A stretch of DNA of 64,000 bases from Daphnia carinata (taxonomy: Eukaryota; Arthropoda; Branchiopoda; Diplostraca; Daphniidae). The notes beneath the pieces were generated by a model that was given only the letters and a program-made list of their open reading frames with translations, had not been told where the DNA came from and ran no database searches. The stretch is from assembly GCF_022539665.2 (NCBI RefSeq), contig NC_081337.1, positions 10,471,768 through 10,535,767 of the forward strand. Direction: 5' to 3'. Both the position numbers and the translations under genes were made by a program. How positions within the stretch are numbered: position 1 is the stretch's first letter; every line of letters begins with the position of its first letter. This document shows, in pieces, positions 25,861 through 61,366 of the stretch.

Positions 25861-28800
25861 ATGACGACGCAAGATTGGACTAGAATGCTGAAAAGCTTCC
25901 GAACCAAAACCTACCGCAATCTAGCAACAGTTGAAGATCGCAAGGCCGGATCGGCTTTGAACGACGCTCGATCGTCGTCCGTAGGCTTGTGCGACGATGT
26001 CGGTGAAGTTGAAGACGACGTTGACGACGGCATCTGCCGTAAGTTCATTTATTGCACACAGGGGCTCGAGCGAAAAAAAAAAAAAAATCCTCCTTTTTAT
26101 TTTCAAAGGAGATTTTTAAATAAGAAACAAAAAGCGGAATCGAATTTCGATCCGGCGTAGTGCGTCACTGTCCGCTTGGTGAGCCCCGTCTGATCCAAAT
26201 GTTCAAATCTCAGGATGTTGTTGCCTTGACTTGGTTTTATTTTTAAGTCCCTTTTTTTGTTGTTGTGTGTGTGTGTGTTTCGTATTTCACATCGAGTTGT
26301 AATCTTTTTTGATTCGCAAAAACAGACAAAATTCTACGTAAACTAATTATTGTATTGTTTTTTTTTGTCTGTTTGGTGATTGGGGTTGATGGAAAATACA
26401 AAAAACAGGTTTAGGGCCGTCAGACATCAAATCAAGAGCGTCGAACGTCGGAGCGATTATCAAGAAAGGTACGTTATTGCCTACGGACTGGACATTGAGG
26501 GAGCGCGTGACGTACAGGGGCGGAGGGCACAGCGATCCAGCAACAAGCGCCGGTAAAAGTCACATTCACCAAAGCGTTGGCTGCCAAGCGAATCAAAGTG
26601 GCAGCGGCGGCGGCGGTGGTGGTGGTGGCGGCGGCGGCGGCGGCGGTGGAGGCGAAGGAGCCGAAGACAAGCCGCTAGCGGTGAGAGGTCGGAGCGCCTC
26701 CGAGCCGTCGTTCCTTTCGGCCAGCCGAGCCGTTAAGGTCCGCGTCTCTTCGTCTCCCGCCAATAACCCATCGTCATACACACCACCGACCGTCAAAGGT
26801 GAAAATTCTTGGGTCGTTTGTTTTTGTTTTTGTTTTTTTACCTTCTCCTCATTTTCGATTTACGAAACTTGGCAGAATTTTTTTTTTATTTTGGCGAAAG
26901 GAATTGGCCTTCGTTTCCTTTGGTTCAGTTCCAAGAACAGGAAAGATAGAAATAAAAAAGAGAAACAGGTTTTCTTTTTTTTTTGGGGGGGGGGGGAGGG
27001 AGGTAAAGAGTTTTAAAGGCTTGGCCGGCCCTTATACGGGTCTGTAATTAGTCGAACAATCTGTCTCTCTTTTTGTCTCGTTGAAATTCTCTCTTTCCAC
27101 ATGTTTGTCTATACACACACGCGCTCGCGCGCCCTATACGCATTTTTTTTTTTTTTTTTTACCTTGATCAATGGGTTGTATATATGTGAAGCGGGAATGA
27201 ATGTTTTTTTCAGGTGGAGGGGAGTGGTCATGGGATGAGGTTAGCTGGCGGTTCTGGAATGTGAATGAATCAGACACACACACACACACACCTTTAACGG
27301 CCCAAAAAAAAAAAATAATAATAATAGTGTTTTTGAGCTCATTCACAAGTACTAGCCGGAGCATTTTTTGGAAAGGGTGTTAACGTTTGTTTTTGATTGT
27401 CTTACGTCTTTAGAGATCAGCAGCATTACGGGGCTGCAACAGCAAATCAAGGCGGCCTTTGGCCGTTGGAGAAAAAGGGGAGCTCCATCGTCGCACGCCG
27501 GTTTGGAGGAGGAGGTGGGTGGCGGCGGCCATCAGCCCATCCGGGAGGACAGCTTTGATCATCCGCTAAACGTCCGTCTCTCGGCGCAGAGTCAGACCTT
27601 TTCGCATCCGCACCGGCTGACCGTCTTTCCGCCTTTCCCTTCCGGCGCCGCATCCTCCTCCTCGGCCAACGTTTCGCCCGCCAGGACTAAGAAGTCGTCC
27701 GTTTTTCATACCTCGGCCACACCTTCCACCGCTGCTGGTGGCGGTGGCAATTCGAAATCGGGCGGCGCCGCTAGTAGTCATCCGTTCGCCTTCGTCCGCG
27801 GCTTGCGCAAACGGCGGGCGGCCAGGGCGGGAGAAGCGTCCGAAGCGCAATCCAATCACCAGCATCGCACTCTGACGGATCTCTGTTCGGATCGCTTGCG
27901 CTCGCGAACGGCGGCAGAGAGCGGCTGGCCCAACTGCACGACCCGTTTAGCCGGCCACGATCATTTCGGACCGTTTGGACCTTTGACGGCCAAATCGAGG
28001 AGCGACCACAGTTTGCACCGCATCCTCAAAGAAGACAACACGTGGACAGTCTTCGCTACTCTTCGCCCACCTTCAGGTTATTTTATTTTATTTTTTTTTT
28101 AAATTCAGATTTCGAGTTTTGATTGGATGGGAGAATGTTGGAATGGCCAAAGTCATTTGATTGGATTCTATAAAAAAAAAATCAGATAAAGGAGGTTCGC
28201 TATCGAAAGGGACGACAGCGTGGACGTTCGGCTTGTTTAGCGATTCGACGTCGTCGCATCAACGACGTCAGACGTCGACCCCATCTGTCGGAAAATCGAC
28301 TAAAAGCAAAGCGGCGTCGGTGGCACCGTCGCCGGAACTCGTCCATCGGGCGTTCACCCCTTGTTTTTCGGCCGGACCGCCATCCGGCCTCGTTTTGCCG
28401 TCCAGCGGCGGATTGTTCGGACGTAACGAGAGGCGGACCCGATCGTTGGAGCGGTGCTGGCAACAGCGTGTCCGCGGTTCAGGTGCTGCCACCGCCACAG
28501 CCACCGCCGGTGCTAGTTGCGGTTACGGTTCGGCCGGCGGCCAGGCCAAAGCTCCGCCGCCCATTCCGTCTCGAGTGCGTTCGCGGTCGCTCGAAAAGAA
28601 CTACACCGTCTCGACGACGACGTCGACCACGCCCCATTGCAATCGACTAGCGGCCGGCGCAGTCAGCAACGCGACAAGTGGTTCCAGCGCGGCTGCCGCC
28701 AACAGCATCGGCACTCCGCTCTTGCCCGTGCGGCGCAACAACGTGCCACCCGAAGTGTTGGCCACGTGGTGCACGTTCAACGAAGCCTTTGGAGGCGGAC

Positions 28801-29961
28801 GGCCGAGACATCAGCAGCATCAGCATCAGCACCAGCGCCTGCCCGCCGAGCCGTTGACGGTCAACGACGAGAGGGATTCGCCCGGTTCGCCCGTCTTCGA
28901 GGAGCTGTTTTTGCCTCCGCCGCAGAAATTCGCGGCTGCTCCTCTTCCTCCGCCGATCGTCGCCAATCCGACGGTCGCTGAGCTCGTCAGCAACAACAAC
29001 AACAACAACAATAAGCGCAACAGCGTCGGAGCGGCCAGTTGTTGTTGTTGCAGCAGTTGCAGCGGCGGGCACAGCCAAAGCAGCGCCGGAGTCAGTTGCA
29101 GTTCGAAATCGACGCCGCGATCCTCGCCCGTCCCGCCCACTTCCTTCCCGGAGACGGTGTTGTACGGGACGCGCGAAGCGCCCGTCCTGGAACGCCACTG
29201 CGTCGAAGGCGGCGAGTTCATCATCGCTTGGCTCTCTCATTCCAACGGTTCCAGCCAATTACAGCAACCAGCTAATCCTTCATCGGGCGGCAATCGAGTG
29301 GGTGCGGCCGCCCTTGTTTCTCCGCCGACCGTAGCGCTGACGTCAGCCGACATGCAGTCGTCCACGTCGTCGAGCCATTCGGCCACGGCCGCGACGGGCG
29401 CCCATCAGGCGGCCGGCAGCGGCAGCAGCAGCAACCGGAGTTTCATCAACAAACCGGCCCGCGGATGGCTCCATTCCGATGTGGTCATTGTCCGCGAGGG
29501 CATCACCTACTTCGTCAGGGTAAACCCATTTTGCATATGAAGGACTTGTCCTTCGTTCGTTCGTTCGTTTCGTTCATTGTATTTCTTTTCTTTTTCTTTG
29601 CTCGGACCGTATCTACACGTGATTTTGTTTGTAGATGATCATCAGAAAAGAGAAGGTCGTTTTGGCTAATAATTAGGGGGGGGGGGGAGGGGGACAAAAA
29701 ATAATAATAAAGATCGGAAGGGGGAGAGAAACGCTAATGCAAGTAGTGTTGCACGTGGGCGGAATCGATCCAGTAGAGGGGTGTGTGTGTGTGTGTGTGC
29801 CAATGCCGATGAGAGAGCGGGAGTCAACAACACGGGCCGTGAGAGGCTTTTGCCTTTGCGCGAACGTTTCCCTCTCTCGCAGTGTGCGTGTGTGGGTTGA
29901 AGATTGAGAAAATCGATGAGAGAGCAGTCTGAAAGTGGGGGGAGGAGGTAACACCCCCTCT

Positions 29962-29992
<31 letters not shown>

Positions 29993-30454
29993 AATTTTTT
30001 TTTTTTTTTTTTGGAGATGGAAGCAATGGGTGGAGTAACGGAAGAGAAGGAAGGCCTGACGAAAAACGGTTGTCGGGAACTATAACCCTCCCCAGTAGGA
30101 TCAATTGAATTGTCGAAGGAAAGAGAAAAGAGCTCGTCATGGAAAGAGAAAGAGCCTTCAAAGATGAATATAAAATAAAAAAAAAAAAAAAAAATGTCGG
30201 AAGGGAGTGTTGAAAAAGAACGGGAATGGTGTGGAACCCACGCATATTGTCACGCAATCTGTGCGGGATGTGTGTGTGTGTGTGTGTCTTGCCGATAAAA
30301 AGTCGAACTCTCCCAAAAAAAAAAAAAAAGAAAAAAAATGTCTGTAGGATCGATCCACCATCACAGTCGCCATTTTTTTTTTCCCCTTCCTTTGGCACCG
30401 GATCATGTCCAGGTACTTTGGTAGGAGGAGCCAAATTTTTGCAAACGTTTTTTT

Positions 30455-30488
<34 letters not shown>

Positions 30489-33400
30489 GATATAACATCC
30501 CCTGTTGCAAGACGATGTTCCCTCAGAGATTGATAAATGTAGTTGCAACTGTCGTGGGTCGATATTGCACGACGGGGGGGGGGGGGGATGGCCAAAAAGT
30601 AATCTGTAAAAGAGAAGGCTTGCAATCGGATGAACGGTAAGAAGAGCAGAAAATAATAGCGTCCGGATGACAACGAAAATCCAGTTGATTTCCAGGGATC
30701 GATCAATAAATGGGGGGAGGGGAACTCTGCAAAGGTATATCCACTCGCGTGTCGTTGGTAGAAAAGAAGCCTGACAAACATTTTGATGCAATAATGAAAT
30801 GAGACCGATCGTCTTGACTTGTAAGCAATGTCGACACACACACACACACTCACGTGAAATGAGATTTATTTGCTTTGCACTATTTGCTACTATGAAATTG
30901 CATTCCTTGTATACCTATGTAATATTATCAATTGATCTTTTACCATCATTTTTTATTTTATTTTAATCAAATACTTGCAGTATATCGGATGTCTGGAAGT
31001 CAACACGTCCATGAAGAGCCTGGATTTCGACACGCGCTCGCAAATTGCCAAGTATGTTTACTCAAAAGCTTTGGTCCATTTTCGTTTGTGTTTGTTGCGT
31101 ATATTTATTATGTCTCTTAAAATTTGTATTTATTTATTATTATTTTTTTTTTTTAATTCAGAGAATGCATCAACATTGTTTGCGAAACAGCCGGCCTCAA
31201 GACGGTCGACAAGAAGCGCAAGGTAAATTACAATGTTTTAATTAACTTCTAAAATGAAGGCGTGAGCCAACGTGAATGAGCCCCGCGGCTAGTGAGGGCC
31301 AGGCCAGTCTCAGGCCCTTTTGCACTCGCTTCTTTGTATTGATTGTATTGATTTTTTCTTTCCCATCTCCCATCCCCCAGCTGCCTAGTTCTGTGACCTC
31401 TCATCTCGTCGTTTTTGCGACTGTGTCACGTCGTGATCTGATTGGCGTTCGCGTCGCCTTATTAGCCATCGCTTTCAAACACGAGCACATCTTAAATTGC
31501 TTTAAAAAAAATATGTTAAACATGTAACAGATATAAGGCACAAAAAGAAAAAGAAAAAGAAAAACTAGTTGAAAAATCAAGTCCGTCTGTGAGCCCGCAA
31601 TTGGGACGATTGGCGCAATCAAAAGCGTTACAGTGGTTCGTGCGGAATAACGGACATTCCGCCCACGCAGCCAATCCCATGCTCGGCTCGTTCGTTTTCC
31701 CTCTCCGCTTCTATGATGTTTGCATCATTGAATCGAATGGTAGCAGCTGTAGATCTTCACGCCCACGTTCTTTTTTTTTTTTGTTATCGTGTTCTTTCAG
31801 CGTTTCGTTCCATCTTTTATATACTTCTCTGTACACACACACACACACTCTTCTTCTTCTTCTTCTTCTTCTTCCTCCTCTTCCTCTTCGTCCAGCTATT
31901 CGCATACCCCCGTCCAACAGCATTAGTCTTTTGTTTTTTTATTGATCGGCACGAGCACAGGGGCAGGTACGGGGCCGATGAAAGATGAGTTTTTCACGAT
32001 GATGGTGTATGTTTTGCAGGTCGACCGGCGGATCCAGCGTATCCTGGGCGACGCCCCTCACATGGAACACGCAGGCAGTGACGTGGCATTGACCATCAGC
32101 AGCGGATGTTTAAGGATCAGCACGCTCGAAGGCAGCGCCGTCGTTGCCTGTCATGACATGCCCAACATTTCCTTTGCTTCCGGCGGAGATCCCGTAAGTC
32201 CCGTTTTTTCTTATCCGCATTAACTAACAGTTTCATATGGTGGTTGGTTTTTCGTTTGTTTTTAATATAAAAGGACACGCTCGATTTCGTCGCCTACGTC
32301 GCCAAGGACACTATCCACGGTCGGGCTTGCTACGTCCTCGAATGCGGAGGTGGGCTGGCGCAGGACGTCATCACCACCATTGGCCAAGCATTTGAATTGC
32401 GTTTCAAGGAATACTTAAAACGAACGCCACGCCCTGCTGGAACTGAATCTGTCCTCGACGGGTACTGATTTTGCATTCATTTCGACTTGGGACACATTTT
32501 TGGCAAAAGATGATTCTTATAAATTCTTTTTAAAATTTCATTTTTTTACACAGACGCGATGCAGTTGGGACGGCCGGCGGGCACAACAGCGCCGGAGCGG
32601 CTCCTCCCCCGTGGTCGCCTGATGATCCCGAGTATTACAATGATTTGCCTGGCAAAGTACCGCCGGATGTCGGACCACCTCCAGTTCCACCGCTGCCCAA
32701 TTATCAGGCTCCATTAGGAGGAGGACCGGTAGCCAGTGGAACGGCTGCTGGAACATTGAAGAAGCCATCAGCGGGTCATCAAGCCAGTAGTGATCGATCG
32801 CGCCACACTGTCGATCTCTCTGACAACTTGATCGATCTGAACGCTGACGTGTCGTCAATGGGCAGAACGGAGACTGGCCTCGCCGGATCGGCTGGATCAA
32901 GCGGCGTTGGAAACATGAGCGGCGCAGTTGTTGGCGGCAATGTCGCCAGCCTGTCGCCTTTTCCCGATCACGAGTACGTCAATGGGATTATGGGATCGAG
33001 CAGCGATTTCAAAAACACTCCCGTCAACAAAGATCCGTTCGATATGCGTAAGTCAACTGGCCCCCTGTTTGGGGTCAAATCAGAAGGGAAAAGAGCTCTG
33101 ACAAATTATTAAAAGCTTGTTGCTAACATCGAACGATAGATCCATTCTCAGCCACACTTCCATCGCCGCTGCCATCGGCCCTGCTTGCGCCTAATACTGG
33201 AACGGGCCGACCCGGTGTCACCCTGCAGCGAGGAGCTACCAAAGCAGGCAAAGCCCGTGTGAGCCCGTTCGAGGCTCAGTTGCTGCAAGAAATTTGGTTT
33301 CACGGACCCATCAGCCGCAAAGAGGCTGAAGATCTTTTGAAACAAGTATGACACCAAAAGATATTGCCATTTTTTTTTTTTTTTTGAACTTTGATTTATA

Positions 33401-38809: not shown

Positions 38810-41800
38810 ATGGTTTCCACGAAAATTGCTTTATGCCTAATAGGGCTTCTTTTACTTTCTGGTAAGTTTGTCAGTTGAGACGATATTCGTATATACCGGG
38901 TGTAATGCATTCAATCATGTATTGCATTTCGCTTTTCTCAACTTGTTTTTAGCAAATTCTGTAATTATTGTGTGTTCTTTAGCATCTTGTTATGCCCAAG
39001 ATGATGAAGATGTTGCCTCAGAAAATATTGAAATTGACTTGGGTGCTAGCAGAGAAGGTTCCAGAACAGGTAAATCCATTATTTTAAGTCTGTAATGTCA
39101 CAATCATTTGATGGAAAAGTTTGACTAAATAGATGCTGAGGTTGTAAAGAGAGAAGAGGAAGCAATTAAACTTGATGGCTTGAACGTAGCTCAAGTAAAG
39201 GAACTCAGGGAAAAGTCTGAAAAGTTTGCCTTCCAAGCTGAAGTCAACCGCATGATGAAACTTATCATCAACTCTCTGTACCGCAACAAGGAGGTATTTG
39301 TTATACCAAAGGTTTTTTCCTTAATTTAGGCAATTACTAAACATAATTTCTTTATCTTGCAGATCTTTTTGAGAGAGTTGATTTCAAATGCTTCTGATGC
39401 TATTGACAAAATTCGTCTAATGGCACTTACAGATAAAGATGCTTTGGCTGCCACAAGTGAACAAACAATTCGAATCAAGGTAATATAATTTTTTCTAAAT
39501 CACAATCTTTGTATGTGTGTGGTGTGGGTACACCTTCCACATGAACCTAGATTAATAGATGTGCGCATTTTTTATTTTATTTTTATTATAAATTTTTGAA
39601 ATAAAATTTATTTCAAGTGCTTTTTTTTTCATTTTTAGGCTGACAAAGAAAACAATGTTCTTCACATTACTGATACTGGCATTGGCATGACCAAGAATGA
39701 TTTGGTTACCAACCTTGGTACAATTGCTAAATCTGGAACAGCTGATTTCTTGAGCAAAATGCAAAATCCTGAATCAACTGGACAGGACGCTGGGGATCTT
39801 ATTGGACAATTTGGTGTCGGTTTCTATTCAGCATTTTTGGGTAAGGGATACAAATTACTACGTATCATCTGAACTGCTACTAAAGACCAACTATCCTTCA
39901 TTTGTCATATAGTTGCTGATCGAGTTGTTGTAACTTCAAAGAACAACGACGACAAACAATACATTTGGGAATCGGATGCTAACTCTTTTAGCATTGCCGA
40001 AGATCCTCGTGGTAATACTCTCCAGCGCGGTACTCAGATTAGCCTTTATTTGAAGGAAGAAGCCCGAGACTTCCTTGAAGTTGACACCATCCGCAACTTA
40101 GTGCACAAATACTCCCAGTTCATCAACTTCAACATCTACCTATGGACTAGCAAGGTATTGTTTACGTAAAACTGCCTTACCAAATTAAATACGATATTTG
40201 ATTACATTTTCCAGACTGAAGAAGTAGAAGAACCTATTGATGATGAAGCAGAACCAGTTGCAGAGAAAAAAACTGAGGAAGAGGAAGATGCTAAAGTCGA
40301 GGAAGAGGCTGAAGAGAAGAAACCCAAAACTCGCAAGGTTGAAAAGACCACATGGGACTGGGAGTTGTTGAACAATGCCAAGCCAATTTGGACTAGAAAG
40401 TGAATTACTTAAAATTTTCTATCCATTTCACATTTCTTACCTCGTAAAATTATTATAGACCATCGGATGTAGAAGAAAGTGAATATGAGGAGTTCTACAA
40501 AGCAATTACCAAGGACACCCAAAGTCCGCTGGGACATATTCATTTTGTCGCAGAGGGTGAAGTTACTTTCAAATCCCTTCTCTACATCCCCAAAGTTCAG
40601 CCGACGGAAAGTTTTAACAAGTACGGTACCCGTACGGACAACATTAAGGTAAACTAGACTGCAGTAAATGCATTGTTTAAAAAAATCAATTTAATAGGGG
40701 GCTTTTTAAATTATATAGCTCTACGTTCGCCGTGTTTTCATCACCGATGACTTCCAAGACATCATGCCCAATTATTTGAACTTCGTTCGTGGTGTCGTCG
40801 ATTCTGATGATTTGCCGTTGAATGTTTCTCGTGAAACCCTTCAGCAACACAAACTTATCAAAGTTATCCGCAAAAAGCTTATCCGTAAAACGTTGGACAT
40901 GATCAAGAAATTGGACAAGGCTGACCAAGAAAAATTCTGGGCTGAATACTCTACCAAGTACATTTTTCACCATTTACTTCAATGAATTTTCTTACTTTTG
41001 ATTTTATTAATTGAAATTCGAAAATTGTATTTCTTTCTTTTTTTAGCATCAAATTGGGTGTTATCGATGATTCAGCAAACCGATCCCGCCTTGCCAAACT
41101 TCTTCAGTTCCGTTCGTCTGCCCAGAAGGGTTTCGTTACGTTCACCGAGTATGTTGAACGTATGAAAGAGAAGCAGGAAGCTATCTATTTTATTGCCGGT
41201 TCCTCTTTGGATGAAGTTGAAAAGTCCCCGTTCGTCGAACGTCTTGTCAAAAAAGGCTACGAAGTTTTATACCTTACCGAAGCCGTTGACGAGTATTGCA
41301 TTTCTGCACTTCCCGAGTTTGAAGGCAAGAAATTCCAGAACGTGGCCAAGGAAGGTGTCGAGTTGGATGAGGGAGAGGGTGCCAAAGCAAAGCTTGAAGC
41401 CCTGAAGACCCAATTCGAACCTTTGACTAAATGGTTGACTGAAACTGCCCTTAAAGAACACGTAAGTTTTCTTACTTACTAAGGTTAAGGAACTAGATTA
41501 AATGGCAATTGCTATTCTATGTACAAATTTAATTGTAAAAATACTATTCCGGTTAGATTATGACTGCTAAGATATCAAACCGTTTGCACAAATCGCCGAC
41601 CGCACTTGTAGCGTCGCGATGGGGTATAACCGGAAATATGGAACGATTAATGTTGGCAAACTCTCATCAGAAAGCAAATGATATTCAAAGAGAGTAAGTC
41701 GAGAGGGCTAAGGAATCCGTCGGCTTCTGTAAAATGTCGGGGATCTATTTTATGTGTTTGTCCATCGTAGCTGAAGGGAATGTAATACGTTTAAGTCTTA

Positions 41801-42542
41801 TTTCATCTGTTATTCTGCTGTGGCTGTTTTACTGTTTCTTATGTGCGTCCTACGTTTGTTGCTTTATAAAGATTTTACGTGCCGAAGTTGGTCAGCGTTT
41901 GCTCAAGACGCCATGCGCCTTAATTACCTCCAAATTTGGTTGGACCGGTAACATGCAGCGAATCATCGCTTCACAGACGCATTCTAAATCGCAAGACATT
42001 CAGCGAGAGTAAGTGTTTTTTGTTTTTTTGGTTTTGTTTTTTTCCTTGTTGCTTCTAGTCATATTCGTTGTGTTAGTCCGGATACCACCATCCATTTTCT
42101 ATTAACTTATTCATTTCTTGTTTGTGTTTTTAGTTATTACTTAACACAGAAGAAAACTCTGGAAATCAACCCCCGTCATCCTTTGATTAAAGAACTGCTT
42201 CGGCGAGTTGAAGCTGACCCTGAGGATCGTTTATCGAAGGGCATGGCAATGATGATGTTCCAAACAGGTAATTTGCATTGTACTAGTATAATCCAGGCCT
42301 TTACTAACGCAATTCGATTTCCGCCTGAAGCCACTCTTCGTTCTGGCTACATGCTACAGGATCCTAGCCAGTTTGCCGAACACATAGATGCGATGTTGAA
42401 GCAGTCATTAGGAGTGGGTGACGCGGAAATCGAGGAAGAGGAGGAGATGGAAAATGTGCCAGAAGGAGAAAATGCTGAAGAGGAAGCAGATCAGGATAAT
42501 GAGGAAGATGAGGAAGAAAAATCGTCGAAAGACGAGCTTTGA
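38810..42542 (+). CDS. HSP90B1: Endoplasmin (GRP94/gp93), ER HSP90 with mutually exclusive exons
   Basis: ER-lumen HSP90 chaperone folding secreted and membrane clients. A signal peptide ([18 protein letters not shown]...) opens the protein and KDEL retrieval signal closes it (KSSKDEL, stop 42540-42542). ATP-binding motifs: [46 protein letters not shown]. The charged linker is Glu/Lys-rich (near 40215-40340), the middle domain has [14 protein letters not shown] and [13 protein letters not shown], and the C-terminal part has [14 protein letters not shown] and [13 protein letters not shown]. Length is about 785 residues, as expected. Two 137-nt exons, 41557-41693 and 41872-42008, encode alternative versions of the same segment (21 of 45 residues identical) between ALKEH and YYLTQKK; both start in phase 0 and end in phase 2, so only one can be used. 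Other exons are ordinary. It is followed by an AATAAA at 42706. Confidence 0.97.
41557..41693 (+). other. HSP90B1: GRP94 alternative exon A (divergent version)
   Basis: 137 nt preceded by CCGGTTAG and followed by GTAAGT. It encodes a segment with [12 protein letters not shown] and [10 protein letters not shown]. The Trp that is conserved in vertebrate GRP94 (GWSGNM) is Ile here and the preceding conserved Cys is Thr. Confidence 0.85.
41872..42008 (+). other. HSP90B1: GRP94 alternative exon B (canonical version)
   Basis: 137 nt preceded by TTTATAAAG and followed by GTAAGT. It encodes [12 protein letters not shown] and [10 protein letters not shown], keeping the Cys and Trp of vertebrate GRP94. 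Its acceptor has a weaker pyrimidine tract than most introns in this gene. Confidence 0.85.
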
Positions 42543-58674: not shown

Positions 58675-61366
58675 ATGGATAGATTAACAAAACGCGAGAA
58701 AGAATATAAAGAGGTTATTGAACAGCAAAAAGATCAGATTAGTCGTTATGAAAAGAAATTGAGGGGTAAGTTGCAAATTCTCTTCATTTTATCCAGCTTA
58801 ATTATTCATGCATGAAGTTTAATTTTAAACAAACTTGTATATGAATGGGGTGATTTTAGATGTTGTTCAAGCTTATAAAGGGATTCAAAAAGAAAAAGAA
58901 GCTTTGGAATCAAGTTTGAAAGCATTAGCAGAAGCAAAGAGTTCATCGGCTGAAGGTGAAGCGACAAGAGATGATGAACTAGAACATAATGCTGACCAGG
59001 GTGCTGTTCTTCAAGAAACTAGGAATGAATTGGAGGTTTGATGTATATCATTTTAAAATTTACTGAGGGTGTGTAATTAATCCTGCCTTAACAATAAGCT
59101 TGCTGAAATTTCAAGCAAAGAAAAGGATATCATTAAAAGGCTTAAAGCTCAGTTGGGTACTTTATCTGATTCCTTAGCAACTATAACTGCTGAAAAATCA
59201 AGATGTGAAGCTAATTTTCAGCAAGATCGAAAGCGAATCTTACTTGAAAAAGAAGTTGTAAGTTACCACTAGAATCATATCTATAAAAAAAAAAGCTTCC
59301 ATGTTTTCTTTTTAGCTTGAAAAATCAGTTGCAGCTGCCTATAGCCAGGCAGAAATGACCTCACACTCATTCAAGCAGCAACTGTTGGAGCTAAAATCTA
59401 ATCTTAGTGTAGAAAAATCAGAAAGAAGTCGAGAGTCCATAAATAATCAAGTAATTCTAAGGTGATAGATTTCTTTCAACCATTTAATTTTCCACATTGC
59501 TAAACTACAATGTATTACGACTTGCAAAGAGAACTACAAAAAACGATTGCAGAAGAGAGGCAGAAAAGAGAAAGCCTTGAATTAGAATTAAATAGCAAAT
59601 CACGGTTGTCTCACCAAGCAAACAACCTGTCCTCAAACCAACTAGAAGTGGCGGAAAGAAAGTAACGGGAAATTTATTACTATCTTCCTTATCAGCTACA
59701 TGTTAATTTGTTAATTTCATTTTTATTTATTAATTTTTTTCAATGCATTGCTTTATGCAAGACTACGGGATCTGAGCAACGAACTTGAATCTACAAAAAT
59801 GAAGCTGTTTACTGCCGAACAGAAACTCCAGGAACCATCTTCTCATCTAGTGCAGCTCCAAAACGAAATGGCTGACCTGAAGATCCAACATCGCCTTGCC
59901 ATTCAACAGGTTAAATTTTTAATGTTCTGGTTATTCTGAAGCAACTTTTGTATGAATTTTATGAAACAGGAGCAGCGTAATGCGATTGAGGCCAAAGAAG
60001 ATGCGCGACAACTAGCCGAAGCTCACGAAAAGAGAGTTGCGACTTTAGAAACAAGGTTAGCCGAATTTTCTGAACGAATCGGATCCTACGATCGTTTGCG
60101 ACAACAGGACTTAGCCACTGTTACCAAATTAAAGGTGAGAATATATGTTTTTTTTTTTTTCGGGCAAACTTAAAATCTCTTGATGTTCAGGAGCAATTAA
60201 ATACGATGCAAAATATGTCTAGTCCACTTTCCCATCCCAGCGAAGAAGACTACGACATCGAAAAACTCATTGGTAAAATAAAATCATTAAAGAATAGACT
60301 CCTGGACGTAAGTCGCCGATCGAATGCAACAGTTAATCTTACAGGTAAGTTAGGCAAATGCATCTATGTCCATTGTGAAACTTTACGTACGATTTTATAT
60401 ATAGCCATTTTTGAATTGGATAACATCGACTCAAATTCGGAACATGATGAAGCTTGTCAGTTGGAATTGCAACAGCTTCGGAAAGAATTAGAATGGTACA
60501 AGCGTGAAGAAAACCAAAGCAATCCAAAATCTGTTAGTTTGTCAGCCCCTGCAGAAGAAGAGGTCAACCAAATGCGCGTTCAGATTCAGTTCCTCCGCAA
60601 TGAAATGGAACACAATGAACAAGAGCATAAACATTCTTTAAGATCAATGCAAGAATCCTGTTTAAAAGAACGTACCGAATGGAAAGATGAATTGACCCAA
60701 ATGGAACGTTCCTGTCGAACTCGTATAGCCGATATGGAGCAACAGCTTCAAAAGCAAAGAGAGAGGTCTCTTACGCTGCTTCAAGAAAAGGACGAAGAGC
60801 TTGTTAGCCTCCGTGAGTTACTAAACATGAAGAACCTATCCACATTGTCTCTACCTCCAGCCACCGTTACCTCCGAAGTTACCGACTCGAATGAAGAATG
60901 GCCGGAATCCTTGGCTCCTCTCGCTTCATTGAGGCTAGGGGCCTCTGCTAGTGGAGGGCAAATGTTGCATTACGTCGAAGAATTAGCCCGGAAGGAGGGA
61001 GAGATTCAGGGTCTTCGTAAATCCAAGAACCAGCTGGAAGCCTCTCTACGAGAAATGCAAATGGCATTTGTCACTATGGAGCATAAAATGGCCGAGCAAA
61101 AGCAACATCTTCATGAAGAACTTGCCCGTTTGGAACGGAATCAATCGCGTGAAAGTGCCAATTTGGAGTACCTTAAAAACGTACTTTTGGAGTTTTTTCT
61201 TCATTCCGATCCGTCCTCTCAGTCCCACATGTTTAACGCAATAGCTGCCTGCCTCCACTTTTCACCGAAAGAGATCCAGCGAGTGCGATCACAGCACCCT
61301 AAATGGAAACTGAATGTGGGGCAAACGAATCCAGCAGCACCATTCAATCCAACAAATTCCTACTAA
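58675..61366 (+). CDS. GCC1: GRIP-domain golgin, GCC1-like
   Basis: A coiled-coil tether of the trans-Golgi. About ten exons encode some 650-700 residues. From MDRLTKREKEYKEVIEQQKD onward, almost the whole protein is heptad-rich, charged coiled coil with few Pro or Gly. A short Ser/Pro-rich hinge lies near SSPLSHPSEEDYDIEKLIGK, and another at LSTLSLPPATVTSEV. The C-terminal GRIP domain is NLEYLKNVLLEFFLHSD, MFNAIAACLHFSPKEIQRV; the Tyr in LEYLKN is the residue that GRIP domains use to contact Arl1-GTP. Placement next to GCC1 rather than golgin-245 or golgin-97 rests on the NLEYLKNVLL form and overall length. The intron at 60344-60403 is 60 nt and stop-free. A junction near 59450-59520 is unclear. 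Confidence 0.86.

Follow-up and report, generated by a model that had tools for sequence, protein, structure and literature searches.

In the 64,000-nucleotide stretch of Daphnia carinata DNA analysed here (the window), a gene for GRP94 (endoplasmin) holds two adjacent, similar exons of equal length for one and the same segment of the protein. This arrangement raises three questions: whether the two exons are spliced in one at a time, what part of the chaperone such a choice would exchange, and how old the pair is.

The GRP94 gene and its frame-locked exon pair

The gene model (Table 1) is complete: its product has a hydrophobic N-terminus, contains an acidic linker and ends in KDEL; an N-terminal signal-like segment (signal peptide judged by eye) and a C-terminal ER retention signal are thus both present. 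With the isoform containing exon B as query, the top match in the PDB was endoplasmin 9n9j (1078 bits, aligned over residues 8-780). Among other HSP90s in the PDB, HSP90-beta scored best with 649 bits, and the mitochondrial form reached about 326 bits. We read the gene as one for endoplasmin, its predicted product being closer to that protein than to cytosolic HSP90 or TRAP1. The Pfam HSP90 profile matches the orthologues P0001 and P0003. Of the named proteins matched, P0003 ('endoplasmin homolog isoform X1 [Daphnia magna]') is the closest. Outside the alternative exon, the product of the window gene is identical to P0003 at 716 of 743 positions and to P0001 at 686 of 708.

Table 1. Positions in the window of the GRP94 coding region and of the exons and introns at and around the alternative pair
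Feature	Positions	Strand	Remarks
GRP94 (endoplasmin) gene, coding part	38810..42541	+	from splice sites and homology; 13 exons per mRNA, 790 aa
Constant exon 10	41047..41461	+	phase 0 end at ...LKEH; donor GTAAGT
Intron 10-A	41462..41556	+	95 nt
Alternative exon A	41557..41693	+	137 nt; A-type: E659, L661, M662, N665, S666; T645, W652, I654
Intron A-B	41694..41871	+	178 nt
Alternative exon B	41872..42008	+	137 nt; B-type: Q659, I661, I662, Q665, T666; C645, W654
Intron B-12	42009..42133	+	125 nt
Constant exon 12	42134..42267	+	phase 2 entry; holds the early stop (codon ending 42190) if A and B are both skipped
Last constant exon	42331..42541	+	ends ...SSKDEL

Elsewhere in the window, an open frame at 60206-61366 (+ strand, 386 aa), about 18 kb downstream of GRP94, is golgin-like; Pfam places a GRIP domain close to its end. 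Six further open frames of 179-459 aa lie on both strands at 26477-30853, and the four that were scanned gave no Pfam match.

A preliminary description of this locus had reported two tandem exons of 137 nt. Their lengths, AG acceptors, AGA/GTAAGT donors, entry in phase 0 and exit in phase 2 were borne out, as was the identity of 21 of 45 residues between the two encoded segments; the end of the upstream exon, placed there at 41462, falls at 41461 in our gene model. At the nucleotide level, 77 of 137 bases are identical. Aligned without gaps, A and B score 119 under BLOSUM62, and the best of 20,000 shuffles reached 28. Identity at codon positions 1, 2 and 3 amounts to 22, 36 and 17 of 45, respectively, and the NG86 method gave a dN of 0.50 and a dS of 2.10. 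Because agreement is greatest at the second codon position and least at the third, A and B have the appearance of two coding exons under constraint, and the shuffles together with the codon-position pattern rule out chance similarity. When the window was scanned in six frames with A and B as queries, no third copy rose above the score limit. The exons are adjacent, similar in length, homologous, matched in reading phase and compatible in their splice sites, which are the features used to recognize mutually exclusive exons in the available part of PMC3228551.

Isoforms with A alone or B alone both comprise 790 aa and reach KDEL, and they differ from each other at 24 of these residues. An mRNA with both exons runs into a stop after residue 692 (its codon ends at 41923, and 219 nt separate it from the last junction), and an mRNA with neither stops after residue 648, 77 nt before that junction. 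The frames of all combinations therefore agree with the earlier claim that using both exons or neither leads to an early stop and that single use gives a full protein. Both stops lie far enough ahead of the last junction that such mRNAs should be removable by nonsense-mediated decay. The frame lock would then clear splicing mistakes by this route, and single use may be kept in part by the decay of mRNAs with both or neither exon.

The same two distances would also suit a mechanism of dosage control, in which the unproductive mRNAs are made and degraded and the difference between the proteins is minor. A poison exon, however, requires no second conserved coding version, and the comparison of A with B shows a coding pattern. 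We regard dosage control as improbable, and favor a gene that would make two full-length ER chaperones by splicing in A or B.

As to how one exon would be chosen, the A-B intron (178 nt, vs. 59-159 nt for the ten constant introns) is long, which makes steric exclusion through spliceosome crowding unlikely. No docking/selector pairing stood out in the DNA of this single species, with a whole-region fold z of 0.59 and one overlapping palindrome. The donors of exons 10, A and B all read GTAAGT, and the polypyrimidine tract scores 8 of 17 at the acceptor of exon A and 11 of 17 at that of exon B. Most likely, a regulator acting on the two acceptors would select A or B.

The exchanged segment and its types among relatives

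Alignment with the mammalian chain shows that the residue numbers of the window protein equal those of mammalian GRP94 in this region. Exons A and B encode residues 631-675, and thereby nearly all of the reported client site at 652-678. According to the available portions of the literature, residues 652-678 of gp96 bind integrins and TLRs, integrin binding (but not that of TLRs) requires Met658 and Met662 (PMC7465916, PMC8002708), and the GWXGNMER motif is essential for the TLR interaction (PMC4868323). The helix N657-Q668 lies inside a predicted substrate region (PMC12527940). The client site has been placed on the interior surface of the GRP94 dimer, in a report that calls Grp94 client recognition an open question (PMC6726633, in the part available). 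The residue mapping and these papers are in line with the proposal of the preliminary description that a client-binding element is exchanged. At the same residues, the aligned mammalian chain has one sequence, GWSGNMERIM, whereas the window gene encodes two.

In exon A, Met658, Glu659 and Met662 are kept, Trp654 is replaced by Ile and Cys645 by Thr, and residue 652 is Trp. Exon B keeps Trp654 and Cys645, with Gln659 (E659Q) and Ile662 (M662I), so that each isoform breaks the vertebrate GWXGNMER motif at a different residue. It had been proposed that exon B retains the Cys and Trp and that exon A replaces Trp with Ile, which holds; the implication that only exon A is altered does not, given E659Q and M662I in exon B. 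Since the exchanged segment is the reported client site and faces the interior of the dimer, the isoforms might differ in the clients that they hold, or in how long they hold them. Judging from the position of the exchange, we consider the prospects for and against a difference in client range to be evenly balanced.

To place the two segments among relatives, we collected 135 proteins among the matches listed from three protein searches, one of which contributed the best 120 of 3,264. With the two window isoforms, and with two copies each in P0044 and P0006, these proteins give 139 segment copies. Segments were classed by residue 659, with E taken as A-type and Q (in one case A) as B-type, and on this basis 20 of the 139 segments among the matches listed are A-type and 119 are B-type. 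The two classes are also without overlap at residues 661 (L vs. I/V), 665 (N vs. Q) and 666 (A/S vs. T) across these 139 listed segments. The mammalian chain carries E659, Q665 and A666, a mixture of A and B states. Trp654 is present in 136 of the 139 segments among the matches listed, and is absent from window A, P0001 and P0018; in P0018, which is B-type with Gly at this position, the change may be a sequence error.

Among the matches listed, the A-type comprises window A, P0001, Bemisia, Zootermopsis, Diabrotica, the mite Aceria and similar sequences, and the first copy in the sea spider Nymphon. The B-type, again among the matches listed, comprises window B, many other sequences, the second Nymphon copy and the named branchiopods Daphnia magna, Scapholeberis, Eurycercus, Macrothrix, Eubosmina, Sida, Eulimnadia, Lepidurus and Lynceus. 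The other named crustaceans in this set, Penaeus, Tigriopus and Palaemon, are likewise B-type. Among the matches listed, the A form is thus that of the insects and mites, and the B form that of the named crustaceans. Entries of the protein database are grouped into clusters at 90% identity, and because the window isoforms differ at so few residues, isoforms of one species may share a cluster in which one hides the other; for this reason, the presence of one type alone in a group (for example, decapods or copepods) says nothing on exon loss. No DNA of arthropod relatives was found in viral contigs (query P0003) or genome contigs (query P0123).

Two of the listed proteins contain the segment twice. 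Endoplasmin P0044 from Nymphon striatum carries, at residues 629-731, an A-like and then a B-like copy in the same place as the Daphnia exons. Its two copies are linked by a short odd stretch, and the Pfam HSP90 profile matches the protein in two stretches. P0044 is probably a gene model that strings both alternative exons together, the alternative being a real double segment. P0006 from Diabrotica undecimpunctata (1331 aa) is a low-quality model in which two GRP94 parts flank a PF00059 domain, which we take to be a C-type lectin domain. Its two segments are alike, and we suspect that gene prediction went wrong there across copies that are duplicated or misassembled.

Probable use of exon A in Daphnia magna or a very close relative

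With the exon-A region as query, five proteins were matched. The best, P0001 (753 aa), carries the A exon and derives from one contig of 3,121 bases, in a cluster of 2 sequences. The same stretch of protein spans 12 exons in the window, so that the unbroken 753-codon frame of P0001 within 3.1 kb is as expected of a spliced mRNA. P0001 and P0003 were compared at 752 positions and differ at 23, all of which lie at residues 631-672 of P0003, inside the alternative exon. Outside the exon they are identical at 707 of 707 compared positions; inside, P0001 has exon A and P0003 exon B, which points to a singly used exon A either in D. magna or in a very close relative. The comparison offers good evidence that single use of A occurs there beside single use of B, with one contig for A. 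The claim of mutually exclusive exons in GRP94 is accordingly well supported, including by a transcript-type protein for exon A, with the qualification that the source of this protein is D. magna or a species very close to it.

An origin of P0001 other than splicing, be it a second gene or a chimeric assembly, is highly improbable. Such an origin would be compatible with a single contig, but it accords poorly with the confinement of every difference to the exon and with 0 differences at the 707 positions outside it. Exon A, moreover, sits in this very GRP94 gene, and the 678-bp A/B stretch has one match in the assembly (108 Mb, 106 contigs), in a DNA search of a kind that would miss a diverged second gene.

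An alternative that we consider unlikely is that exon A is decaying or rarely used, with B making the real chaperone and inclusion of A amounting to splicing noise or a weak protein. Exon A evolves faster than exon B: between the window and P0001, 39 of 45 residues are kept (6 changed), compared with 43 of 45 (2 changed) for exon B between the window and P0003. This faster change, together with the lost Trp654, makes a weaker function of exon A possible; Cys645 is missing from it as well, and its acceptor has a poor polypyrimidine tract. Use of exon A may also be rare, as P0001 rests on one contig, and all 12 of the named crustacean proteins among the matches listed are B-type. Against this reading, the clustering of the database could mask A isoforms of the named species, and exon A has an open frame and clean splice sites and retains, besides the 39 residues, an unchanged block of 12 residues in the near relative. 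In P0001, it is joined to other exons. The preliminary description had named three things that would speak against the pair: one exon without reads joining it to 42134, an exon A with stops in related species, and loss of purifying selection on exon A. As far as these points were looked at in this one relative, exon A runs into a constant exon at either end, is stop-free and is conserved to the extent given above. Taken with the frame lock, these observations argue that exons A and B very probably constitute a mutually exclusive splicing switch.

Age of the pair and its place among known systems

The preliminary description had proposed a search for both exons in other branchiopod genomes; the sea-spider protein P0044 points to an origin that may lie further back than that group. 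All trees and AU tests bearing on this question rest on 45 alignment columns. In a tree of 79 rows from the matches listed, with the mammalian row included, the B side was supported at 94/75 and the A side at 79/76. In a tree of 29 rows, chosen from the 79 without the mammalian row, the A/B split was supported at 99/92. Placing Daphnia A and B together gave an AU p of 0.131 in a two-tree test, and of 0.028 and 0.024 in six-tree sets, so a Daphnia-only duplication appears disfavoured, though not by every test. Uniting crustacean A with crustacean B was not rejected (AU p 0.11, 0.195 and 0.146).

We think it probable that the A/B pair goes back to one old duplication common to water fleas and sea spiders. 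The pairs of Daphnia and Nymphon could instead be separate duplications of the same exon with converged A-like and B-like residues, a possibility that we hold to be somewhat doubtful. Separate crustacean and Nymphon duplications were not rejected over the 45 columns (AU p 0.086 and 0.141), nor was the union of the Nymphon copies in two of its tests (AU p 0.2, 0.045 and 0.232), and convergent exon duplication has been reported in other gene families, in the part of PMC9741552 available. What argues against separate origins is that four positions have non-overlapping states in the 139 segments among the matches listed, that the order of A followed by B is identical in Daphnia and Nymphon, and that a Daphnia-only together with a Nymphon-only duplication was rejected (AU p 0.005 and 0.020). 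If the pair does have a single old origin, a broader scenario can be drawn, for which we see slightly less than an even chance: the client-site splice switch of GRP94 would predate the split of the living arthropod groups, both exons would persist in water fleas, sea spiders and perhaps widely, and the A-only insects and mites and B-only crustaceans would reflect clustering or the loss of one exon.

Dscam, muscle myosin heavy chain and Cacophony likewise have adjacent homologous exons of like length, with the same phases and compatible splice sites, one of which is used at a time. The Cacophony pair is reported to be at least 530 million years old and to code for a partner-binding region (PMC9741552, in the part available). 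Unlike the pairs in those three genes, that of GRP94 sits in an HSP90-family protein that serves as a general chaperone of the ER, and neither 'HSP90' nor 'chaperone' occurs in the main text, as available, of PMC3228551 or PMC9741552 on such exons. We count the A/B pair as a real further case of known mutually exclusive exons, for which a very near relative supplies the evidence of expression.

The preliminary description knew of no described splice switch of this kind in GRP94. In the titles and the starts of abstracts of the papers listed, including few subscription papers, no published A/B-type switch was found for GRP94, endoplasmin, Gp93 or HSP90B1, or in Daphnia or crustaceans, and the available part of a krill transcriptome paper (PMC3017093) contains nothing on GRP94 splicing. 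Human HSP90B1 transcripts do appear under an MXE label in PMC11346782, as an event class assigned by software in microglia RNA-seq, with no word of homologous tandem exons in the available text; as a prior description, this label and the other papers of co-mention were set aside as unrelated. The claim of novelty is limited in that NCBI names of the 'isoform X1' kind are attached to endoplasmins of D. magna, Penaeus japonicus and Palaemon carinicauda; such names imply two or more isoforms in the existing automatic annotation of those species, the exon involved being unspecified.

For the biology of the chaperone, the pair suggests that a protein known in mammals in a single form may here be produced in two versions from one gene. 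The exchange of 45 residues at the reported client site would be a natural experiment, in which the ATPase and the remainder of the dimer stay the same and the grip comes in two versions. If the pair has the age suggested by the sea-spider model, a second isoform may lie concealed behind the GRP94 entries of arthropods in clustered databases, and if the switch predates the arthropod split, a single ER HSP90 would serve two client programmes in arthropods.
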